Source: Cyclobacterium sp.
GTDB lineage: Bacteria > Bacteroidota > Bacteroidia > Cytophagales > Cyclobacteriaceae
Direction: 5' to 3'
DNA: 64,000 nucleotides
Assembly: GCF_014762705.1 (NCBI RefSeq)
Contig: NZ_JABURL010000094.1
Coordinates: 1-64,000, forward strand
Shown: positions 52,132-61,867 of the stretch, piece after piece
How the letters are laid out: each line of letters opens with the position of its first letter
Numbering within the stretch: the first letter of the stretch is position 1
The notes under the pieces: generated by a model
What the model was told of the DNA's origin: nothing
Seen by the model: the letters and a program-made list of their open reading frames with translations, nothing else
Databases searched by the model: none
Program-made: the position numbers and the translations under genes

Positions 52132-55100
52132 TCATTTGAAATCTCTGGAAGGAAACAATTCCCCCTGTTGGCCCTTCTCTCCTGAGGAGGATTGGGGTAT
52201 TTTTTTACCAAACTTTCCTTTACCTGCAGGACTTTGACCTGGAGGATCCGCTTTTAGCAGTCTGTTTAGGTTATGGCAGGAGCGTACCACCACATGGATG
52301 ACTTCTCCTTCTACCTGAAGTTTACCCGAAACCATCAATAACCTGGATTGCAGGATGACGGACCGGTATTTTTCAAATGTTTTGGCCCATACTACCAGGT
52401 TGGCAAAGCCGGTCTCGTCTTCGATGGTGATAAAAAGCACCCCTTTGGCAGTGCCCGGGCGCTGCCTTACCGTAATCAGACCGCACACTTTGACAAAAGC
52501 CCCGTCTTTCATTTTTCCCAAATGGACCGTAGGACTCACCCGCAACTGATCCAGACGCTCACGCACATGGCTAAGGGGATGGGATTTCAGGGAAAGTGTA
52601 GTACTGGCATAATCCCGAAGCACCTGCTCCATGGGAGGTATAGCAGGAAGCACTACTTTCTTTTCGGTGGGCGTTTCCTGAACCTGCCCGGTAAACACCC
52701 CAATAGGCCTTCCCTGAAGCGCCAACACATCCCAAAGAGCCTGTCTGCGGTCCAGGCCCAGCGACCGAAAAGCATCTGCATCGGCCAGGCGCTCCAGGGC
52801 AGCCTTGGGTACGCCGGCATTGATCAGGTCGGTGATATGGACGTAGGGTTTTTTCCTTTGCTCCACCAGCAGTTGCATGTCTGCCTCATGCAAGCCTTTC
52901 ACTTGACGGAAACCCAACCGGATGGATAAATACTGACCGGATTTTTCTTCAAACACATGATCCCAGCAGGAGCGGTTTACATCTACAGGCCTCACTTCCA
53001 CTCCATGCTTGCGGGCATCATTGACGATCTGTGCCGGTCTGTAAAAACCCATGGGCTGGCTATTGAGCAGGGCAGTAGCAAAGACATCCGGGTAGTGGTA
53101 CTTCAGCCAACAGGAAACATAGACCAGCAAGGCAAAACTGGCCGCATGGCTCTCGGGAAAACCATAACTTCCAAATCCTTCCAACTGCCGGAAAACCCGC
53201 CTGGCAAAATCCTCCTCATAGCCACGGGCCACCATACCTCCTACGAGCTTTTTCTCATACTGACTCACCAGGCCATGGGCTTTGAAGGTTGCCATACTTC
53301 GCCGCAGTCCATCTGCTTCTGCCGGGGTAAAGCCTGCCGCTACAATGGCAATCTCCATGGCCTGCTCCTGAAACAGGGGCACCCCCAGCGTGCGCCCCAG
53401 AATCTCCTCCAGTTCGCGGGAGGGATATTCCACCGGCTCTTCTCCCCTGCGTCTTTTGAGGTAGGGGTGCACCATATCTCCCTGTATCGGTCCCGGTCTT
53501 ACAATCGCCACCTCGATCACCAGATCGTAAAAGGTCCTGGGCTTCAGACGTGGCAACATCGACATCTGGGCACGGCTCTCTATCTGAAATACCCCCAGGG
53601 TGTCCGCATGACTGATCATCTCGTATACCCTAGGGTCATCTTGGGGAATGTTAGCCAGGGTGAGGTGCCGGCCATAATGGGCCCGAACCAGGTCAAAGGC
53701 CTTTCGTATACAGGTAAGCATGCCCAATGCCAGCACGTCCACTTTCAGAAAACCCAGGGCATCGATGTCGTCCTTGTCCCATTCGATGCAGGTGCGGTTT
53801 TCCATCCGCGCTTGCAGTACCGGACAGAGGTTGGAGAGCTGGTCCCGGGTGATTACAAACCCCCCGGTATGCTGGCCTAACTGTCTTGGAAAACCCATGT
53901 ACTGCCAGGTAAGCAGCAGTGTCTTTCGCAAATGGGTATCCCGCGGGTCAAATCCTTGAGAGGACACTTTCTCCCCTTGCAGCCATTCTTTCGTCAGTTC
54001 GTGTCCCGACTTTGCAAGCCGGTCTACCGCATCCAATGACAAGCCCATCGCTTTCCCCACATCTCGGACTGCCCCTTTCCAATGCAATCGCGTAACAGTG
54101 GCCACAATGCCTGCGCGGTCCCGGCCATACTTTTCATAAATATACTGCATCACCTCCTCCCTGCGCTCGTGCTCAAAATCCACGTCTATATCCGGCGGTT
54201 CGTTGCGGGCATCAGACATAAAGCGGGCAAAAAGCAGCTTGAACTTGGAAGGGTCCACCGAGGTAATGCCCAGGCAATAGCAGACTACCGAATTGGCTGC
54301 CGACCCCCTTCCCTGACAAAGAATACCCCGCTTACGGGCAAAGCGCACCAGGTCGTATACCGTCAGAAAATAAGAAGCATATTCCTTGCGGGCGATAAAT
54401 TCCAACTCCTGCTGTATGGTATTCTTGAGCGTTTCGGAAAGTTGCTCTCCAAAACTGCTCCGGGCTCCTTCCCAGGTCCGCAATTCCAGTTCTTCCTGTG
54501 TGCTACGGCCTTCACTGCTGATTTCTTCGGGGTACTGGTAAGTCAATTGATCCAGCGAAAATTGGCAGGAGTCAGTAATTTCCTCTGCCCGGCGAAGGGC
54601 GGCCGGGTACTCCCGAAACAGGCGGTGCATTTCTTCCCGGGATTTCAGGTAACGTTCAGCATTGGGATGCAGGCGAAAGCCCGCACTTTGAATGGTACAT
54701 TTTTCCCGGATGCAGGTCAGCACATCCTGCAGGGCCCTCCTTCCCGGCACATGGTAGTGCACGTCATTGACCGCTACCATGGGTATACCCAGGCTTTTCT
54801 CCCACTGTGCTATGCGAAACAGCCGCTTCTGATCGCTACCATTGTACGTAAAAGCGGCGGCCAGGTAAAGGTTGTCACCTATTGCCTCCCGATATTCCTC
54901 CAGAGAAGAATAAAAGGACGGCTCAAAATCCAGGTGGGCATTCAGGCTAGTTGGAGGAACTGCAATAAATACGCTGTCCCGGGCATGGGCGTATACATCC
55001 GCCTTGTACAGGTGGCAGATCCCCTTCTCTGCCCGGAGATTGCCCAGGCTGAGTAGAGAAGAGAGTCGGCCGTAGGCTTCCCGGTCTCTGGGATAAGCCA

Positions 55101-55335
55101 ACAGGCTGGGACCATCCAGCAAGTCCAGACGGCAAGCCGGAATGAAGCGAAGACCGGACTCCCTGGCTGCCTTGTGTGCCCGGACAATTCCCGCAAGGGT
55201 ATTCCGATCGGTGAGAGCCAGAGCTTCGTAGCCCAGTTCAATGGCTTGCTGGACCAATTCTTCCGGATGCGAGCCGCCCCTAAGAAAGGAAAAATTGGAA
55301 GTCACCTGCAGTTCGCTATAGGCTGTTGTTTGCAT
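52132..55335 (-). CDS. dnaE2: Error-prone DNA polymerase DnaE2
   Basis: The 1067-residue protein has an N-terminal PHP domain (SNFSFLRGGSHPEELVQQA, TDRNTLAGIVRAH), a Pol III alpha-type palm with PDIDVDFEHERREEV and DALGFLKVDVLALGML carrying the catalytic Asp residues, and a C-terminal OB-fold domain (FVKVCGLITVRQRPGTAKG). The family makes mutagenic lesion bypass with ImuB. It follows imuA and imuB on the same strand with 39 bases to imuB. The high G+C in this stretch, compared with its flanks, was seen by eye. Confidence 0.95.
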   Translation of the reverse strand: MQTTAYSELQVTSNFSFLRGGSHPEELVQQAIELGYEALALTDRNTLAGIVRAHKAARESGLRFIPACRLDLLDGPSLLAYPRDREAYGRLSSLLSLGNLRAEKGICHLYKADVYAHARDSVFIAVPPTSLNAHLDFEPSFYSSLEEYREAIGDNLYLAAAFTYNGSDQKRLFRIAQWEKSLGIPMVAVNDVHYHVPGRRALQDVLTCIREKCTIQSAGFRLHPNAERYLKSREEMHRLFREYPAALRRAEEITDSCQFSLDQLTYQYPEEISSEGRSTQEELELRTWEGARSSFGEQLSETLKNTIQQELEFIARKEYASYFLTVYDLVRFARKRGILCQGRGSAANSVVCYCLGITSVDPSKFKLLFARFMSDARNEPPDIDVDFEHERREEVMQYIYEKYGRDRAGIVATVTRLHWKGAVRDVGKAMGLSLDAVDRLAKSGHELTKEWLQGEKVSSQGFDPRDTHLRKTLLLTWQYMGFPRQLGQHTGGFVITRDQLSNLCPVLQARMENRTCIEWDKDDIDALGFLKVDVLALGMLTCIRKAFDLVRAHYGRHLTLANIPQDDPRVYEMISHADTLGVFQIESRAQMSMLPRLKPRTFYDLVIEVAIVRPGPIQGDMVHPYLKRRRGEEPVEYPSRELEEILGRTLGVPLFQEQAMEIAIVAAGFTPAEADGLRRSMATFKAHGLVSQYEKKLVGGMVARGYEEDFARRVFRQLEGFGSYGFPESHAASFALLVYVSCWLKYHYPDVFATALLNSQPMGFYRPAQIVNDARKHGVEVRPVDVNRSCWDHVFEEKSGQYLSIRLGFRQVKGLHEADMQLLVEQRKKPYVHITDLINAGVPKAALERLADADAFRSLGLDRRQALWDVLALQGRPIGVFTGQVQETPTEKKVVLPAIPPMEQVLRDYASTTLSLKSHPLSHVRERLDQLRVSPTVHLGKMKDGAFVKVCGLITVRQRPGTAKGVLFITIEDETGFANLVVWAKTFEKYRSVILQSRLLMVSGKLQVEGEVIHVVVRSCHNLNRLLKADPPGQSPAGKGKFGKKIPQSSSGEKGQQGELFPSRDFK

Positions 55336-55374
55336 GTTTTGTATGTATCTGATCTTTGGATAAATTTTTCCGGA

Positions 55375-56865
55375 TCAGGAAAAATAGCCGTGCAAAAACC
55401 ATTGGGGTTTTCCTTTTCCGTAAAGCCCCAGCCGGAAAAGCCAGTACCTGCCTCCCTCGGTATCTTCCACACAGTAATAATCCCGGGGTGGCCCGGTCTG
55501 CAGCCACCACTCCTGCTCAATGCGCTCCGGCCCGTCGGCACGGGCCACCCGAACCAACTTGCCCTGATGCTTGAAATGCAGGGGAGGGTAATCGGGCAAT
55601 GGTACCATGACCGAAATGGGCTCCGGCACAGACAGCAGGTGCATGGGACGAACCGAATCGGGCCAATCCGTATCGGGTTTTTCGTCCAGGGAGCACGCAG
55701 GACGCACCGAATGCTCCGGCCAATGCCGCTCCTCCGGCAGGTACCGCTGCATGTGTCCCGAACCCAGCCTGGTACCTATCCGGTCTACCAACTCTGCCAC
55801 CGCAGCCGGATCTCCGGAACGGTGCCAAAGCTGCTCCTGTGGCAGTTGAACCTTTTCCACCATTAATCCTTCCAGGTAAAACAGCTCTATTCCCAATGCC
55901 GGCTCCAGGGATGGAATTTTCAGAGAAAAAAGCCGGAAAAGGTGCTCCGGATTGTGGGAAGCACGACCGGTACCAATGGAAATTTCTACCGTCTTCCCAT
56001 CTACGCGCAGACCTTTGAAAACGGCCTTGCGCAGCCCCTTCCCTTCCCGGATCAGGCGCTGGCAAAGCCTGTCCAGCAGCTTCCGAAGGGCGATCTCAAT
56101 GCCCCTGGCGGTGCGAATGGGCTCCAGACAGGGCAGTTGCTCTTCATAGGGAACCCGGGGCAGTACGGGTTGAAAGGCCTCCTCTTCCTCACCGAGGGCC
56201 TGCCCCAGCCGAAACAGCAGTTCCTCACCAAATCTCCTGCGCAAGGTAGCTGCGGGCAAGTCTATAAACTGTTCGATTTGCCGGAAACCCAATTTATCCA
56301 AGCCTTCCAGAGTCCGGGCTTCCAGTCGAAGGGCAGCGGGTGGCAAAGGCAGCAAGGCTTCCCGCTGCATTCCCTTCCCGGCGATACAGGCCTGTTCACC
56401 GTAACGTGCCAGTGCCCATGCCGCCCCGATGGTATCGGCAATGGCCGCCCGTACATGGTAGCCCTTGCTTTCCAATGCGGAAACCAAAGCTTGCAGATAA
56501 GCGGATTCTCCTCCCCAGAGATGTGGGCAACCTGAAATATCCAGCATCAAGCCGGAAGGAGGATCTGCAGCAGGCAATGGAGTATACTGCAGGCACCAGC
56601 CAGCCAGCCGGTGGAGGAGTCGCTTGCTCCAGCCAGGCTTATCGGCATAGACCTGTATATCCGGGAAAATGGCCCTGGCATCAGCCACAGCCTTACCCGG
56701 TCGGATGCCTCGTGCATAAGCCTCCCGGCTACTTGCCTGCACCACAGCCCGACCCCGTTCGTTACCCGCCAAAACGAAGGGTTTTCCCCGTAGTTCCGGA
56801 TATCGAATGGCCAGCCGGTCCGTAATCAGGTGACTAAACCAGAGAGATAAAAACCGCTTAGGCAT
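55375..56865 (-). CDS. imuB: ImuB-like Y-family polymerase homologue
   Basis: The start is set at the ATG at 56863-56865 (MPKRFLSLWF); an upstream frame extension to 57078 is part of imuA read in another frame. The 496-residue protein has the Y-family fold, but LSLWFSHL stands where the catalytic D-x-D region of DinB would be, and MLDISGCP replaces the DEAYLD-like acidic site. ImuB proteins are catalytically dead and recruit DnaE2 and the sliding clamp. It overlaps imuA by 8 bases. Confidence 0.9.
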   Translation of the reverse strand: MPKRFLSLWFSHLITDRLAIRYPELRGKPFVLAGNERGRAVVQASSREAYARGIRPGKAVADARAIFPDIQVYADKPGWSKRLLHRLAGWCLQYTPLPAADPPSGLMLDISGCPHLWGGESAYLQALVSALESKGYHVRAAIADTIGAAWALARYGEQACIAGKGMQREALLPLPPAALRLEARTLEGLDKLGFRQIEQFIDLPAATLRRRFGEELLFRLGQALGEEEEAFQPVLPRVPYEEQLPCLEPIRTARGIEIALRKLLDRLCQRLIREGKGLRKAVFKGLRVDGKTVEISIGTGRASHNPEHLFRLFSLKIPSLEPALGIELFYLEGLMVEKVQLPQEQLWHRSGDPAAVAELVDRIGTRLGSGHMQRYLPEERHWPEHSVRPACSLDEKPDTDWPDSVRPMHLLSVPEPISVMVPLPDYPPLHFKHQGKLVRVARADGPERIEQEWWLQTGPPRDYYCVEDTEGGRYWLFRLGLYGKGKPQWFLHGYFS

Positions 56866-57601
56866 AATTTTTTCTGTTTTGAACAATTTTTTGTGACTGC
56901 TGATGGAAAAGCTCCTGAAAACCCTCTCCATCCCATTGCAATTGCCAGTGGCCCGGTTTTCCGTTTCGTGCCTTGAGCAAGGATACCTTCCAGGCAGGCC
57001 AGCCCATGCCCGGCATTCCTGCCGGCACTGTACTGGGTAACGGAGCCAGCTTCCAGCGGGTGGCACAGGCCAGAGCATGCAGGCTTCGGGGTTGGTGCCG
57101 GTGGAGAAAGCCAGTGACCCGGCTCCGCTCTACCGCCAACTGCAGGCGCTGGGATTCGGAAAAGCCCAACTCCCTCATTTCCCCTACCACCGCTACCAGC
57201 GCTTCACAACTTAAGGCCTGCTCCAACGTCCACAGCAGGTCCTTTTCCCTGGGAACATTCACAAAAAGCACCCGCTCCGGAGCTAGCCCAAAACACTTTA
57301 AAGCAGGAGGAAAGACCTGGGGACAGGTACCCAGCCAAAGGCAAAATCCGCCTTTCTGCATCAGCATGCCCAGAATAACTGCCAGAAAACCCTGAGTGGA
57401 AGCAGCCTCGGAAGAATTGTGGCTGATAAATTCGTGGTTGGCGGCCAGGGGAAATGCCCTGCCGGGGAAGGCCTCATGTAAGGGTCCCAATTGCAGTCTG
57501 GAATCGGTTTGCTGTCCTTTTTGGGGAATATACCCTTCCAGCTCCATAATTTCCTGCTTTAATTGCCTGAGTTGCTCGATTTTATCACTATTAAGTTTCA
57601 T
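56858..57601 (-). CDS. imuA: ImuA family protein (RecA-like fold, SOS mutagenesis)
   Basis: The start is set at Met13 (57601, MKLNSDKIEQLRQLKQEI), giving 247 residues; the upstream extension to 57637 runs into the regulatory region. The protein is RecA-like in outline (GFLAVILGMLMQKGGFCLWL, RVLFVNVPREKDLLWTLEQAL, LVAVVGEMRELGF), but no proper Walker A GxxGxGKT is visible, as is common for ImuA. It is first in the imuA-imuB-dnaE2 operon and divergent from the LexA-like gene. Confidence 0.85.
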   Translation of the reverse strand: MKLNSDKIEQLRQLKQEIMELEGYIPQKGQQTDSRLQLGPLHEAFPGRAFPLAANHEFISHNSSEAASTQGFLAVILGMLMQKGGFCLWLGTCPQVFPPALKCFGLAPERVLFVNVPREKDLLWTLEQALSCEALVAVVGEMRELGFSESQRLQLAVERSRVTGFLHRHQPRSLHALACATRWKLAPLPSTVPAGMPGMGWPAWKVSLLKARNGKPGHWQLQWDGEGFQELFHQQSQKIVQNRKNYA

Positions 57602-57671
57602 GGTTTCCGCAGAATGAGTATATTTGACACGATTCATAACAAAATTTTGACTCTAATAATACCAAACTTCG
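57602..57671. promoter_or_regulatory. Shared divergent control region of the mutasome and its LexA-like regulator
   Basis: Only 70 bases separate imuA (minus) and the regulator (plus). Two direct repeats TTTGAC at 57623-57628 and 57646-57651, 23 bases apart, stand out. On the minus strand, TTTG then 19 bases then TACTCATT resembles the Bacteroidota promoter form (TTTG, TAnnTTTG) and would place the start near the imuA ATG. The regulator most likely binds this region and represses both directions until cleaved. Confidence 0.45.
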
Positions 57672-58475
57672 ATGAAAAAGTCAAAAAACTTTTTTCCAGG
57701 AAACCTGAAATTTCTCCGGGACCGGAGGGGGCTGACCCAGCAAGGGCTGGCAACAGACCTGGAACTGACCAGGTCCAAACTCAATGCGTTGGAATCCGGG
57801 CAGACCAAGGCGCCTGCTCCCGAGGATTTTCTGGCGATATCCAGCTATTTCGGTATCAGCATCGACAGCCTGATACGGGTAGACCTGCGCACACTGGGGG
57901 AACTAAAATTGCGGGAGCTGGAAGCGGGAAACGACGTTTACATGCGGGGCGGCAACCTGCGGGTGTTGGCCATCAGCGTGGATAAAGGTAACCAGGAAAA
58001 TGTGGAATACGTACCCATCAAAGCCAAAGCAGGCTACCTTTCCGGGTACAACGACCCTGAGTTTATTGCCTCCCTACCCCGATTTTCCTTACCCAATCTA
58101 CCGAGACAGGGTACCTACCGGATATTTCCTACTGTGGGGGATTCCATGTTGCCCATTCCGGGGGGCAGCGACATCATCACGAGGTACCAGGACGACTGGA
58201 CGGCCCTAAAGCCGGATACCCCCTGTGTGGTGATCCTGAGTGGACAGCAGGACTTTGTTTTTAAATTGGTGACCTTACAGGCTGAAGGGCAGCTACTCCT
58301 TCGCTCCCTGAACCCCATCTTTGCCCCCTATACCGTGCCTGTGGACGAGGTAGCAGAGATCTGGAAGTTTCATGCCTATACCAGCAAAGAAATCCCCGAA
58401 CCCGAAACCGACCTGCAGCAGCTGGTCCGGGCGGTCCGGGACATGCAATTGGAGCTTAAGGGGAAGAAGAGATAG
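57672..58475 (+). CDS. LexA-like repressor: XRE helix-turn-helix plus S24 self-cleaving domain
   Basis: The 267-residue protein has an XRE-type helix-turn-helix (about 10-66; LRDRRGLTQQGLATDL) and an S24 peptidase domain. The candidate cleavage bond is Ala120-Gly121 (KAKAGYLSGY), the nucleophile Ser158 (VGDSMLPIPGG) and the general base Lys198 (FVFKLV), 40 residues apart as in LexA. It is therefore able to cleave itself after RecA activation (inference). Divergence from the imuA-imuB-dnaE2 operon marks it as its regulator. Confidence 0.9.
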   Translation: MKKSKNFFPGNLKFLRDRRGLTQQGLATDLELTRSKLNALESGQTKAPAPEDFLAISSYFGISIDSLIRVDLRTLGELKLRELEAGNDVYMRGGNLRVLAISVDKGNQENVEYVPIKAKAGYLSGYNDPEFIASLPRFSLPNLPRQGTYRIFPTVGDSMLPIPGGSDIITRYQDDWTALKPDTPCVVILSGQQDFVFKLVTLQAEGQLLLRSLNPIFAPYTVPVDEVAEIWKFHAYTSKEIPEPETDLQQLVRAVRDMQLELKGKKR

Positions 58476-58798
58476 GGAGTTCAATGAATTTTCATATATA
58501 ATAACTGCAGCTGAAGCAGTAGGCAATTGACTATAAGGATCCAGGTTCTAAATGAATATTACCTCAACAGGAATCTGGCTTTAGCAAAAAGAATACCTTA
58601 TATCTAACCTTCCATATAGCAGGCCCATTTGTATGCCGAATTGGAGGTTGACTTTTTAGCGATTGCTTATTAGATTTAATAAGTAATTGATATTGCATGT
58701 TGCAACTAATCGATCAAAAGAATGAAAGTTGCCTTCCAAATAATTCACCTTTGGGAAGAAGCCTCATTCCGAGTTTGGATAGCCCACTCAATCAAATC
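58476..58798. other. Intergenic region, AT-rich, no gene seen
   Basis: Sequence here shifts to AT-rich, unlike the mutasome genes to the left. It holds the region upstream of the small peptide frame at 58799. A longer frame starting at 58697 exists, but its first 34 residues do not look like protein with a signal peptide. No promoter match I would defend. Confidence 0.4.
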
Positions 58799-58960
58799 AT
58801 GAACATTTCCTTTAAAATCAAAAAACTAAAAAACCGATTTATAATTGGGAGTGTAGCCATGGCCACTTTATTTATGGCATTTGGATCCTACGGGTCTTTT
58901 AATCCATTTGAGATCGGTTTTTACACCTCCATAGGGGCTGGGATAGGTGGTTCTATGTAA
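58799..58960 (+). CDS. Small secreted-type peptide, possibly interrupted by an in-frame stop
   Basis: The 53-residue frame from the ATG at 58799 has a basic start (KIKKLKNRF) and a hydrophobic stretch (IIGSVAMATLFMAFG), then SYGSFNPFEIGF and TSIGAGIGGSM before a TAA at 58958-58960. The same frame goes on for 15 codons after the TAA (AIMGLNGCWVGIKPK) to a TGA at 59006-59008. Either the first stop is a mutation or the tail is not translated. An alternative upstream start is 58697. It has a peptide-precursor shape; no family recognised. Confidence 0.5.
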   Translation: MNISFKIKKLKNRFIIGSVAMATLFMAFGSYGSFNPFEIGFYTSIGAGIGGSM

Positions 58961-59019
58961 GCTATTATGGGTTTAAATGGCTGCTGGGTAGGAATAAAAC
59001 CTAAATGATTTGTTTATTC

Positions 59020-59083
59020 ACCTCCTGACAAAATACATTTCATCCGTAGGAGGTTCAAAATAGTGGACCTGCTATTTTTTTTT
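59020..59083 (+). terminator. Two hairpins, the second followed by a T run
   Basis: ACCTCCT (59020-59026) pairs with AGGAGGT (59048-59054), and AAAATAG (59057-59063) pairs with CTATTTT (59072-59078) around an 8-base loop, followed by TTTTT to 59083. The second hairpin with its T run is a reasonable rho-independent terminator for the plus-strand peptide gene. It also lies beyond the end of the convergent minus-strand genes. Confidence 0.6.
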
Positions 59084-59162
59084 GCCGCTAAAGCCACCGA
59101 CCTGATGGTAGTTAACCAAAATTTTAGTATTTGGTATTACCAATTTAGGACACAACCCTGAA

Positions 59163-59345
59163 TTAACTTTGCTGCTTTTTCCTGTTTACAATAATAAACC
59201 AGTAAATCAAGGTACCTATAAAAACAAAGGCACTAAATAAAATTCCCCAACCGTACAGGTAATGATCAGAAAGGACTTTTAACGCAGCAAAAACAATGAC
59301 TCCCAGCGCAGCTAATCCTAGAATAACTAATATCTCTTTCATCAT
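59163..59345 (-). CDS. Small two-helix membrane protein
   Basis: The 60-residue protein has two hydrophobic helices (about 5-23 and 32-52) and a basic tail (NRKKQQS). Its ATG-ATG follows directly on the stop codon of the 44-residue peptide gene, so the two are co-translated. No family recognised. A membrane protein of this size next to a small peptide gene is the layout of a bacteriocin-immunity pair, but this is only inference. Confidence 0.6.
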   Translation of the reverse strand: MMKEILVILGLAALGVIVFAALKVLSDHYLYGWGILFSAFVFIGTLIYWFIIVNRKKQQS

Positions 59346-59480
59346 CTATTTACTTATTTCTTTAATGGCACATCCTAATGCAGCTCCAACTACACAAAAG
59401 GGACTTAATACCCAACACCCAAACGTTCCAACCGGGTCATCATCCCAATCATCAAAAAGCTTATCTATAGCACTATCCAT
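59346..59480 (-). CDS. 44-residue peptide with three cysteines, candidate bacteriocin or signalling peptide
   Basis: A minus-strand ATG at 59478-59480 opens a 44-codon frame to a TAG at 59346-59348. The first 15 residues are acidic (MDSAIDKLFDDWDDD) and the remainder is hydrophobic, with Cys22, Cys29 and Cys37 (TFGCWVLSPFC, then ALGCAIKEISK). It lies 9 bases after the stop of the lipoprotein gene upstream and abuts the two-helix protein gene. No double-glycine leader is seen. No family recognised; the frame is supported by tight packing with neighbours. Confidence 0.5.
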   Translation of the reverse strand: MDSAIDKLFDDWDDDPVGTFGCWVLSPFCVVGAALGCAIKEISK

Positions 59481-59489
59481 ACAATTTCC

Positions 59490-59993
59490 CTATCCTTTCA
59501 AGCTCGGACGGTCTGAATTTAATCCCAACGCTTCTGAATTATAGATAAATTGATTTCCGCTATTCAAAGATTTGAATGAAATTGAAGGTCTACTTCTATC
59601 TTTAGCATTATATTCATTAAAATTAGCCAAAATAAAATCAGCTTCTTTTCCGGAATCCAAGACTTGTACGAACACTTCTTCATATTCATCTTGAAAGGTA
59701 AAAGAAACTGCTGACCTACCATTTTCAAATTCAAACAATCCAATATCTCCTAAATTATTTGAAACTCTCAATGATATATTAGGCGGTTTCTTATCATTTG
59801 ATTTTTGATTTAAAGAACTTAATGCGCTAATAACTAAAGGGTCTTCTGGAGATAGATTTTTAAAATTCTTCACATGATTTTGAGCATCGCTTGAATTTTG
59901 AAAATTAGAATTAATATCTTCTTCCATAAAATCACCACAAAACCAAAACAACAACATAGGAAAAACTAAGATCAGTTTAACAGTAGGTTTCAT
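59490..59993 (-). CDS. Small lipoprotein, unknown
   Basis: The start chosen is the ATG at 59991-59993, where a lipoprotein signal begins (VFPMLLFWFCGD, Cys19); the frame continues upstream to 60101 but without protein character. The 167-residue protein is polar and rich in Asn, Ser and Asp after the Cys. It lacks recognisable motifs. With the 44-residue peptide and the two-helix protein it forms a tight three-gene unit. The DNA is AT-rich compared with both flanks, which suggests recent acquisition. Confidence 0.6.
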   Translation of the reverse strand: MKPTVKLILVFPMLLFWFCGDFMEEDINSNFQNSSDAQNHVKNFKNLSPEDPLVISALSSLNQKSNDKKPPNISLRVSNNLGDIGLFEFENGRSAVSFTFQDEYEEVFVQVLDSGKEADFILANFNEYNAKDRSRPSISFKSLNSGNQFIYNSEALGLNSDRPSLKG

Positions 59994-60277
59994 GTTATTA
60001 AGAATAAAGTGATAACAAGACCAATCAGGCTCGTAAATTACCTGGCTACTCACTTGTTTAATGTCGTTTTTCACTTTCACATCGCCGACGTTGGGTGGCA
60101 AACCCTAAAAAACCCTTATATAATATGGTGAAATTGTTTATTATATTGACAAAATGATGAATTTAAAATAATAAAATAATAAATAATAATTAAATTTTTA
60201 CATTGAAAAAAATTAAAGTCTTCACTTCTCTTTAAACTATGCTATAGTATTTTAAACACCCCAGAATACTAATTTTA

Positions 60278-61867
60278 TTAGTTTCCTCCAAAAAAATCCT
60301 TCCAGGCCTCCGCCTTCAGGGCCTTGTCTTCGGGGCCGGTATAAATTAGCAGGCGGTAGCGGATGGTTTCCGATTCTCCGGCTGCCAGGCCCCAGTCACC
60401 CAGTATTTGCCGGGAAGGACCCAGGCCCATTTGGCTGTCTACACGCCAGGGTGTGGGGAAAGCCGCATTGTCCGGATGATCCAGGATGGCAATCCGGGCA
60501 AAATCCTCCCTCCCATCCAGCTTGATGCCTATATCGCTCCAGATGGCCCGCTGACCTTCCAGCTCCATCCCTTCCTGTCCGGAAGCACCCAGGATTTCAC
60601 CTATGGTCTCGGGCACCCAGGGCATGCGTACAAACAGGCCTCCCACATAAAATTTACCCATTACCACCTCCTTTTTGGCTTCCCCCTGCCATTCCAGGTC
60701 CAGTACGTAGCGGTCGGCATAGGCCTGTAGGGACCAGTTTTGGGTTTCCACCATAAGAACCTCTCCTGCTTCATCAAGCATTTCGTATATGGTCTGCCAA
60801 CGAACTTTCTCCCCGCTGTCCTGCTGCACACTTGCCGATATCCGCCGCCAATAATCCCGGTTCCAATTCATAAAGAAATCGCGCTCATTTACCCGCTTCA
60901 GGCCCCAGTAAATGCCGGTTTGGTGGGGATGGTGGTCCGGGCGGTATTCGGTCAGCTCTCCCTTTCCATCTGGTGCCAGAATGGGATGCAGGTAGGGCCG
61001 TTGGTCCGATATTGTCCGTTGGGTCAGGATGGGTGCTGTTTTGTCTGCTGCACGCACGGCGATACGACCGGCTTGCCGATCCTGTTCGATGCGAAGGGAA
61101 AGGGGGTTCTGTGCCCGGGGCTCCCCGGAGGAAGGCAGCAAGCTGACCACCAGAACCTGATCTTCCATTGGTCTGAGCGCCAGGCTTCCCTTTTGGATTC
61201 GGATATTGCGAAACCGGATGGAAAAACTACCCTGGGGATCGTTTTCATTGTTGGCATGCAGTTGCAGGCCAATAAATCCCCGGAGGTAGCGATCGTCTTC
61301 CAAATGGGCAACGGGCACCCCGTTTACCCAGGTTCGGATAATGGGACCGACCGCTTCAATGCGGTAATGGTTCCATTGAAAACCGTCTTTATCATCCCTT
61401 TTGAAGGCCCCTTTAGCTGCCGGACCCATTTTCTCGGGCGGGTAAATCCAGCCCCGGTCGGCTCCTTCTTCATAGATGGCCCCGCTCCATTGCTGGGGCT
61501 TGGGATCTACTTCCATCTGATAGCCATGCACCCGGCCGCTTTTGTATTCCGGGTAGCTCTGGGATCGAAATTGAATGCCCGAATTATTCATCAGCGTATC
61601 CACGGAGACTTCCAACTCGAGCACAAAATCACCGAATTGCTGCTCGGTGCACAAAAATCCGTTGGGCTGACCCGGAACGGTGCTCCCGACGATCATTCCG
61701 TCCCTTACCTCCCATTTATGGGCTCCATTCAATTCCTTCCAGCCGCTAAGGTCTTTGCCGTTGAATAGGGATTGCCAGACCGGTTCCTGAGCCGGCATTG
61801 TGAATGGTGCAAGGAAGCCTGTATAAAGAAGCAGTAAAAAGGAAGTAAGGGTTGGTGATTTCATCAT
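60278..61867 (-). CDS. Secreted DUF1080 (3-keto-glycoside hydrolase-like) fused to a PmoA/DUF6807 domain
   Basis: The 529-residue protein has a signal peptide (to about residue 26), a DUF1080 concanavalin-like domain (about 29-230; WQSLFNGKDLSGWKE, NSGIQFRSQ, GYQMEVDPKPQQWSGAIYEE) and a C-terminal PmoA/DUF6807 part (about 245-529; RPYLHPILAPDGKGELTEYRPDHHPHQTGIYWG). DUF1080 proteins are known as 3-keto-disaccharide hydrolases; PmoA-type domains are linked to methane oxidation genes only by name, and function in this fusion is unknown. It lies 37 bases downstream of the PQQ-dehydrogenase gene, as one operon. Confidence 0.88.
   Translation of the reverse strand: MMKSPTLTSFLLLLYTGFLAPFTMPAQEPVWQSLFNGKDLSGWKELNGAHKWEVRDGMIVGSTVPGQPNGFLCTEQQFGDFVLELEVSVDTLMNNSGIQFRSQSYPEYKSGRVHGYQMEVDPKPQQWSGAIYEEGADRGWIYPPEKMGPAAKGAFKRDDKDGFQWNHYRIEAVGPIIRTWVNGVPVAHLEDDRYLRGFIGLQLHANNENDPQGSFSIRFRNIRIQKGSLALRPMEDQVLVVSLLPSSGEPRAQNPLSLRIEQDRQAGRIAVRAADKTAPILTQRTISDQRPYLHPILAPDGKGELTEYRPDHHPHQTGIYWGLKRVNERDFFMNWNRDYWRRISASVQQDSGEKVRWQTIYEMLDEAGEVLMVETQNWSLQAYADRYVLDLEWQGEAKKEVVMGKFYVGGLFVRMPWVPETIGEILGASGQEGMELEGQRAIWSDIGIKLDGREDFARIAILDHPDNAAFPTPWRVDSQMGLGPSRQILGDWGLAAGESETIRYRLLIYTGPEDKALKAEAWKDFFGGN

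Follow-up and report, generated by a model that had tools for sequence, protein, structure and literature searches.

The 44-residue cysteine peptide encoded on the minus strand of the Cyclobacterium sp. DNA analysed here (a stretch of 64,000 nucleotides, referred to as the window) very probably represents the C-terminal tail of a lipoprotein gene that has been split by an in-frame stop codon, because relatives encode body and tail as a single lipoprotein. On this comparison of sequences, the unit in the window has most likely arisen by decay from a cassette of two genes, which as far as sampled is restricted to Cyclobacteriaceae.

The unit comprises three minus-strand frames, all present as the earlier note had described them, with gaps of 9 and 0 bases between them. 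The lipoprotein body (59490..59993, minus strand, 167 aa) carries a lipoprotein-type signal, recognized by eye as ..LLFWFC-GDF.., and ends at an in-frame TAG (59490-59492, minus strand). The 9-base gap after this stop consists of three sense codons (59481..59489, minus strand), which lead in the same phase to the ATG of the 44-residue frame (59346..59480, minus strand), with cysteines at positions 22, 29, and 37, corresponding to the conserved cysteine-rich C-terminal tail of the intact lipoprotein. The third frame (59163..59345, minus strand, 60 aa) encodes a candidate immunity or partner protein of the membrane, in which inspection reveals two hydrophobic stretches, taken by eye to be helices, and no cysteine; comparison with relatives places its conserved start at the second ATG (59342), giving 59 aa. 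Body, peptide, and membrane frames have G+C contents of 30%, 39%, and 34%, respectively, compared with 44% for the window, confirming the AT-rich character previously noticed. Upstream of the lipoprotein lies an AT-rich leader (59994..60277, minus strand) common to the window and two species with an intact gene, part of which (60073-60214) also occurs in a further genome of the genus (G010); as to whether the leader is a genome-wide repeat, only one copy was found in the window's genome. By its length alone, a 44-codon frame is within chance, since among 2,000 random 831-bp sequences of the same G+C content, 52% harbor a complete frame that starts with ATG and runs for 44 codons or longer. It is the conservation across genomes of the genus that identifies the frame as coding DNA.

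The unit is flanked in the window by a 3-keto-disaccharide hydrolase/DUF6807 gene (60278-61867) and by a helix-turn-helix (HTH) regulator (57672-58475). Convergent with it is a small membrane-type gene (58799-59004, plus strand), which is frameshifted near its end in the window. Its homologue in C. roseum encodes 68 aa (L003 5340-5546, minus strand), and the frame is also open at loci L006 and L008; a 12-residue string of this gene was not found in L002, L005, or L007, and the gene has no Pfam match at E up to 0.01. The region 52132-58475 contains genes that, going by their translations, look like a dnaE2-imuB-imuA mutagenesis cassette, and the divergent HTH regulator beside them has a GDSM motif that resembles LexA-like S24 proteins. 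Pfam recognizes only the HTH part of this regulator and returns no match for 56858-57637, and Rfam has nothing in 58400-60500 at E up to 1.

Body and tail form one continuous frame in Cyclobacterium jeungdonense (G002, locus L005) and Cyclobacterium sp. SYSU L10401 (G009, locus L006), each of which encodes a single 215-aa lipoprotein. The bodies of these proteins are 84-86% identical to that of the window, and a search with the intact protein recovers the window's genome as one 215-position match containing 1 TAG. When 245 genomes of the family were searched with both intact proteins, matches were obtained in 29 genomes, those at E ≥0.005, with the exception of G042, being taken as chance without inspection. 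The sole further match that is nearly full length and free of stops (positions 11-212, E 3.4e-35) comes from another genus (G124), where a lipoprotein of 206 aa counted from its ATG has a lipoprotein-type start and a similar body and tail, with 38% identity overall. Across the three genomes, the intact lipoprotein thus has 206-215 residues and a conserved, hydrophobic, cysteine-rich tail of 44-48 residues with four cysteines, following the pattern C-M-x2-A-I-D-K-L-[FY]-D-D-W-x2-D-P-x-G-T-F-G-C-W-x5-C-x2-G-x4-C-x-I-K. The tail is better conserved than the body, with 25 of 48 positions invariant among the three proteins versus 52 of 167. In all three genomes, the lipoprotein is directly followed by a small two-helix membrane gene; in G124, the two genes overlap by one base, between the stop of the lipoprotein and the start of the two-helix protein (59 aa). 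Immediately upstream, the intact pair of G124 is preceded by a gene judged by eye to be transposase-like (L090 3940-5121).

The suggestion that gene finders overlooked a separate 44-residue peptide gene in the window is therefore not supported, as the same residues are the tail of one lipoprotein frame in all three of these genomes. Among homologues, the peptide did not occur as a gene of its own, the tail-only frames of C. roseum and C. salsum being a consequence of body loss. An apparent short gene with conserved cysteines that turns out to be the tail of a split longer gene is a trap for surveys of small open reading frames.

The membrane gene is found in 10 of the 12 genomes of the genus, in none of the ten with a stop. 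The two genes are adjacent, and the putative immunity gene persists without the putative toxin: the lipoprotein is intact in 3 of the 15 genomes that hold the membrane gene. These 15 are the ten of the genus, four outside it (G042, G045, G115, and G029), and G124, which is included by adjacency and build only: its membrane protein is 21% identical to that of the window and is absent from the profile matches, and homology here accordingly rests on position and build. The exceptions among the copies are a truncated gene in G029 and a TTG start in G042. The profile matched 19 genomes, of which six with E ≥0.001 (G048, G064, G074, G098, G138, and G233) were left uninspected, as was a second weak match in C. 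jeungdonense. In named genomes, relatives of the membrane protein occur at 7 loci, all in Cyclobacterium, with flanking DNA that aligns on both sides. Cyclobacterium xiamenense has a second copy, 48-49% identical (L038 1501-1680; G011:C17:109926-110105), at another site after a frame that appears by eye to be sulfatase-like, and without a lipoprotein tail.

In the membrane gene, dN/dS is 0.08-0.46 in pairs with ten or more changes. Between C. roseum and C. plantarum, neither of which has an intact lipoprotein, 10 synonymous and 4 non-synonymous changes give a dN/dS of 0.09 (P 1e-4 with a naive neutral share, 3e-3 with the share lowered to 0.68). Of nine pairs tested, two were not significant with the naive share (0.057 and 0.082) and three with the lowered share. 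The value is 0.46 for G001 and G010 and 0.87, on four changes, for C. xiamenense and C. lianum, and the gene is near-neutral between G045 and G115 (dN/dS about 0.8, P 0.33). The lipoprotein body, compared between the window and the two intact species of the genus, has a dN/dS of 0.36, whereas the two flanking genes are lower, at 0.04-0.13.

The cassette also shows signs of having moved between species. Between C. jeungdonense and sp. SYSU L10401, dS is 0.010 for the body, 0.082 for the tail, and 0.026 for the membrane gene, as opposed to 0.99 and 1.13 for flanking genes. With a body dS this low beside flanking values near 1, slow evolution was rejected as the reason for the low divergence of the cassette in this pair. 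Compared in steps of 150 bases, these two genomes are 97-99% identical along a tract of ~1 kb that spans leader, lipoprotein, and membrane gene; identity is 69-94% in the upstream flank, as far as it was covered, and 90-91% in the 300 bases that follow downstream. The membrane gene of C. xiamenense and C. lianum is likewise 100% identical over its first 150 bases, between flanks of 71-96%. The simplest account is recombination at this site, by which either the whole cassette or just the membrane gene has been exchanged.

Lipoprotein, tail, and membrane protein were compared with Pfam and NCBIfam, and no family reached its curated cut-off. Weaker matches were not accepted as homology. Among them were those of the membrane protein to SLATT_3 (E 0.0052; 16.8 bits, cut-off 45), of the G124 lipoprotein to SNaCT1 (E 0.0024; 18.2 bits, cut-off 27), and of the G124 tail to sublancin (E 0.03; 14.9 bits, cut-off 26.9). 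Scans that left out the G124 membrane protein gave weak matches in PHROGs (best E 0.0072, for the membrane protein, to an entry of unknown function) and one in PADLOC (E 0.013). The best match to a solved structure (E 0.38) was taken as chance, and a structure predicted for the intact protein from two alignment rows reached a mean pLDDT of 42, too poor for a fold search. No relative was found in viral contigs by tblastn, nor any match in plasmids with the G124 tail as query. Profiles of the tail and of the whole protein, run over overlapping draws of 390 family, 390 order, and 296 phylum genomes, returned no further convincing member; in one of these searches, seven matches outside the window's genome were taken as chance uninspected, and G671 was left uninspected in another. 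Tail-profile matches in G114 and G635 were inspected and rejected, as were seven weak profile matches outside the genome of origin (one of them, L119, by its surrounding frame only). In the searches of the genus with tail, body, and membrane protein, matches at E ≥0.07 were taken as chance. A literature query for Cyclobacterium and bacteriocin yielded, judging by titles and the opening lines of abstracts, work on cancer microbiota only, and a nameless family is not searchable by name.

What the intact pair does is a matter of two main readings. It could, as a real possibility, be a non-antagonistic pair, an ordinary envelope complex such as a stress or assembly factor that is repeatedly lost as dispensable. 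The weak matches just described are consistent with this, as no toxin or immunity family is recovered above cut-off, and so are the loss of the lipoprotein in many lineages and the drift-like rates between G045 and G115. In most lineages seen, however, the membrane gene persists beyond the lipoprotein, and between species the cassette is far more alike than its flanks, which would be unusual for a dispensable housekeeping pair.

Alternatively, the intact pair may have a bacteriocin-like role, possible if somewhat doubtful, with the lipoprotein as an antibacterial precursor and the membrane protein as its immunity partner. Such a pair would fit the data because one partner is lost while the other is retained and because the genes appear to be exchanged between species. 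In this scheme, the intact lipoprotein would carry the tail to the cell surface, where the tail, freed or still tethered, might disturb the membrane of neighboring cells, and the two-helix membrane protein would protect the producer and thus act as the immunity protein. Cells that have lost the lipoprotein would stay protected as long as the shield is retained, and the immunity gene would then outlive the toxin. The earlier proposal of a bacteriocin or signalling peptide with an immunity or export partner can be retained in part: the adjacent pair of lipoprotein tail and membrane protein recurs in more than one genus, and decay and exchange are compatible with it, but a separate peptide gene is not supported. 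An independent bacteriocin or signal gene is unlikely in the window's genome, and any weapon that the pair may represent has most likely fallen into disuse there.

The route of decay differs between lineages. A 44-residue frame with a start codon and without a stop is kept in five of the 12 genomes of the genus, namely the window's own (G000), C. jeungdonense, sp. SYSU L10401, C. roseum (G007), and C. salsum (G008, with a TTG start), in C. jeungdonense and sp. SYSU L10401 within the longer frame; the expectation that homologues would keep the frame is borne out for these five, but not for the rest. In C. roseum and C. salsum, the tail directly follows the hydrolase gene, and only the last few codons of the body remain. 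The tail of C. xiamenense (G011) is open but begins after a stop and has no start, that of C. plantarum (G005) contains a stop, and C. lianum (G003) has none. In G010, the body is gone, and part of the leader (73% identity to 60073-60214) is joined to half a tail with stops, while in G001 the membrane gene is present and the tail finds no match. The other two genomes of the genus, G004 and G006, have no credible match to either gene; a 42-base match to the leader (E 2.4e-4) sits right where a G006 contig ends, and the G006 locus may have been lost in an assembly gap. Outside the genus, broken tails lie beside a membrane-gene homologue in G045, G115, and G042, and G029 has the homologue but no tail.

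Could the detached tail now be a small gene in its own right? Ribosomes would have to restart at the ATG nine bases on, and the 44-residue cysteine peptide would have to work without the body. The tail frame, with its ATG or TTG start, is open and nearly unchanged in the window, C. roseum, and C. salsum, all of which lack an intact single-frame lipoprotein, and separate translation of the peptide would likewise produce such constancy. The detached tails differ by 2-8 changes per pair (1-5 synonymous, 1-4 non-synonymous), too few to test selection. We nevertheless consider an independent tail gene improbable: the detached peptide has no export signal sequence evident by eye, its start is lost in C. 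xiamenense, the frame is broken in C. plantarum, G010, G045, and G115, and where the gene is intact, in two genera, it encodes one continuous lipoprotein. Still less probable is a sequencing or assembly error in a gene that is intact in the living strain. The split and intact forms do differ by a single codon, and one genome of the species was seen, but the assembly has a rated completeness of 100% and a contamination of 0.51, and several relatives also carry broken forms.

Returning to the antibacterial reading, we tentatively raise the idea, unlikely as it may be on balance, that the cassette could be an antibacterial of a new kind in Bacteroidota, carried by a lipoprotein: a lipoprotein of ~210 residues would present or release a membrane-active, four-cysteine tail of 44-48 residues beside a two-helix immunity protein, and species of Cyclobacterium would time and again shed the toxin while retaining immunity and exchanging the cassette among themselves. 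An intact family with no match above the Pfam and NCBIfam cut-offs offers a compact, testable candidate for lipoprotein-borne antagonism in Cyclobacteriaceae, and natural intact, split, tail-only, and membrane-gene-only lineages are available for comparison.

In build, the cassette recalls the known systems BcpT/BcpI, SitA/SitI, and Cdz, and Fab1 and halocin C8 offer parallels for C-terminal activation; membership in any of these systems is not claimed. The active part of halocin C8-like precursors is cysteine-rich. This C-terminal part is released from a longer precursor (PMC12893001); the cassette differs in the four cysteines of its intact tail and in its separate membrane partner gene, and the halocin C8 family TIGR04449 is absent from the NCBIfam scans at E up to 10, with 0 matches in the window's genome at E up to 1. 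The two-peptide bacteriocin Cdz of Caulobacter is described as CdzC/D with glycine zippers and type I secretion, with CdzI for immunity (PMC5380434). A small hydrophobic effector and a small transmembrane immunity protein would be common to both, but the effector of the cassette would be a lipoprotein tail.

SitA of Myxococcus is a lipoprotein toxin with a C-terminal effector and an adjacent immunity gene, sitI (PMC5562445), resembling the cassette in its lipoprotein, its C-terminal part, and its adjacent candidate immunity gene. The C-terminal domains of SitA described in that work act as nucleases in the cytoplasm, and the system involves sitB as well as outer membrane exchange (PMC5562445), whereas the cassette pairs a short, hydrophobic, cysteine-containing tail with a partner in the membrane. 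Fab1 of Bacteroides fragilis, with a precursor of about 50 kDa, a 28-kDa active C-terminal fragment, and an immunity gene (RFab1) downstream (PMC8406203), comes from the same phylum and likewise combines the C-terminal part of a precursor with a candidate immunity gene downstream, but the precursor of the cassette has about 210 residues and its tail 44-48.

In BcpT/BcpI of Phocaeicola, BcpT is described as a plasmid-borne lipoprotein precursor of 499 aa with a signal peptidase II site and an active C-terminal part, which C11 proteases cleave at two LTR sites, and BcpI as a 57-aa protein, itself a lipoprotein, encoded just downstream (PMC9308784). The precursor of the cassette is, in contrast, 206-215 aa long and lies on large contigs, and inspection found no LTR processing site in the three intact proteins; its partner, unlike BcpI, is a two-helix membrane protein without cysteine instead of a small lipoprotein. 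A lipobox recognizable by eye and a conserved tail might make the intact lipoprotein a signal peptidase II precursor with an active C-terminal part, and the two systems share their phylum and a very small gene just downstream of the putative lipoprotein precursor.
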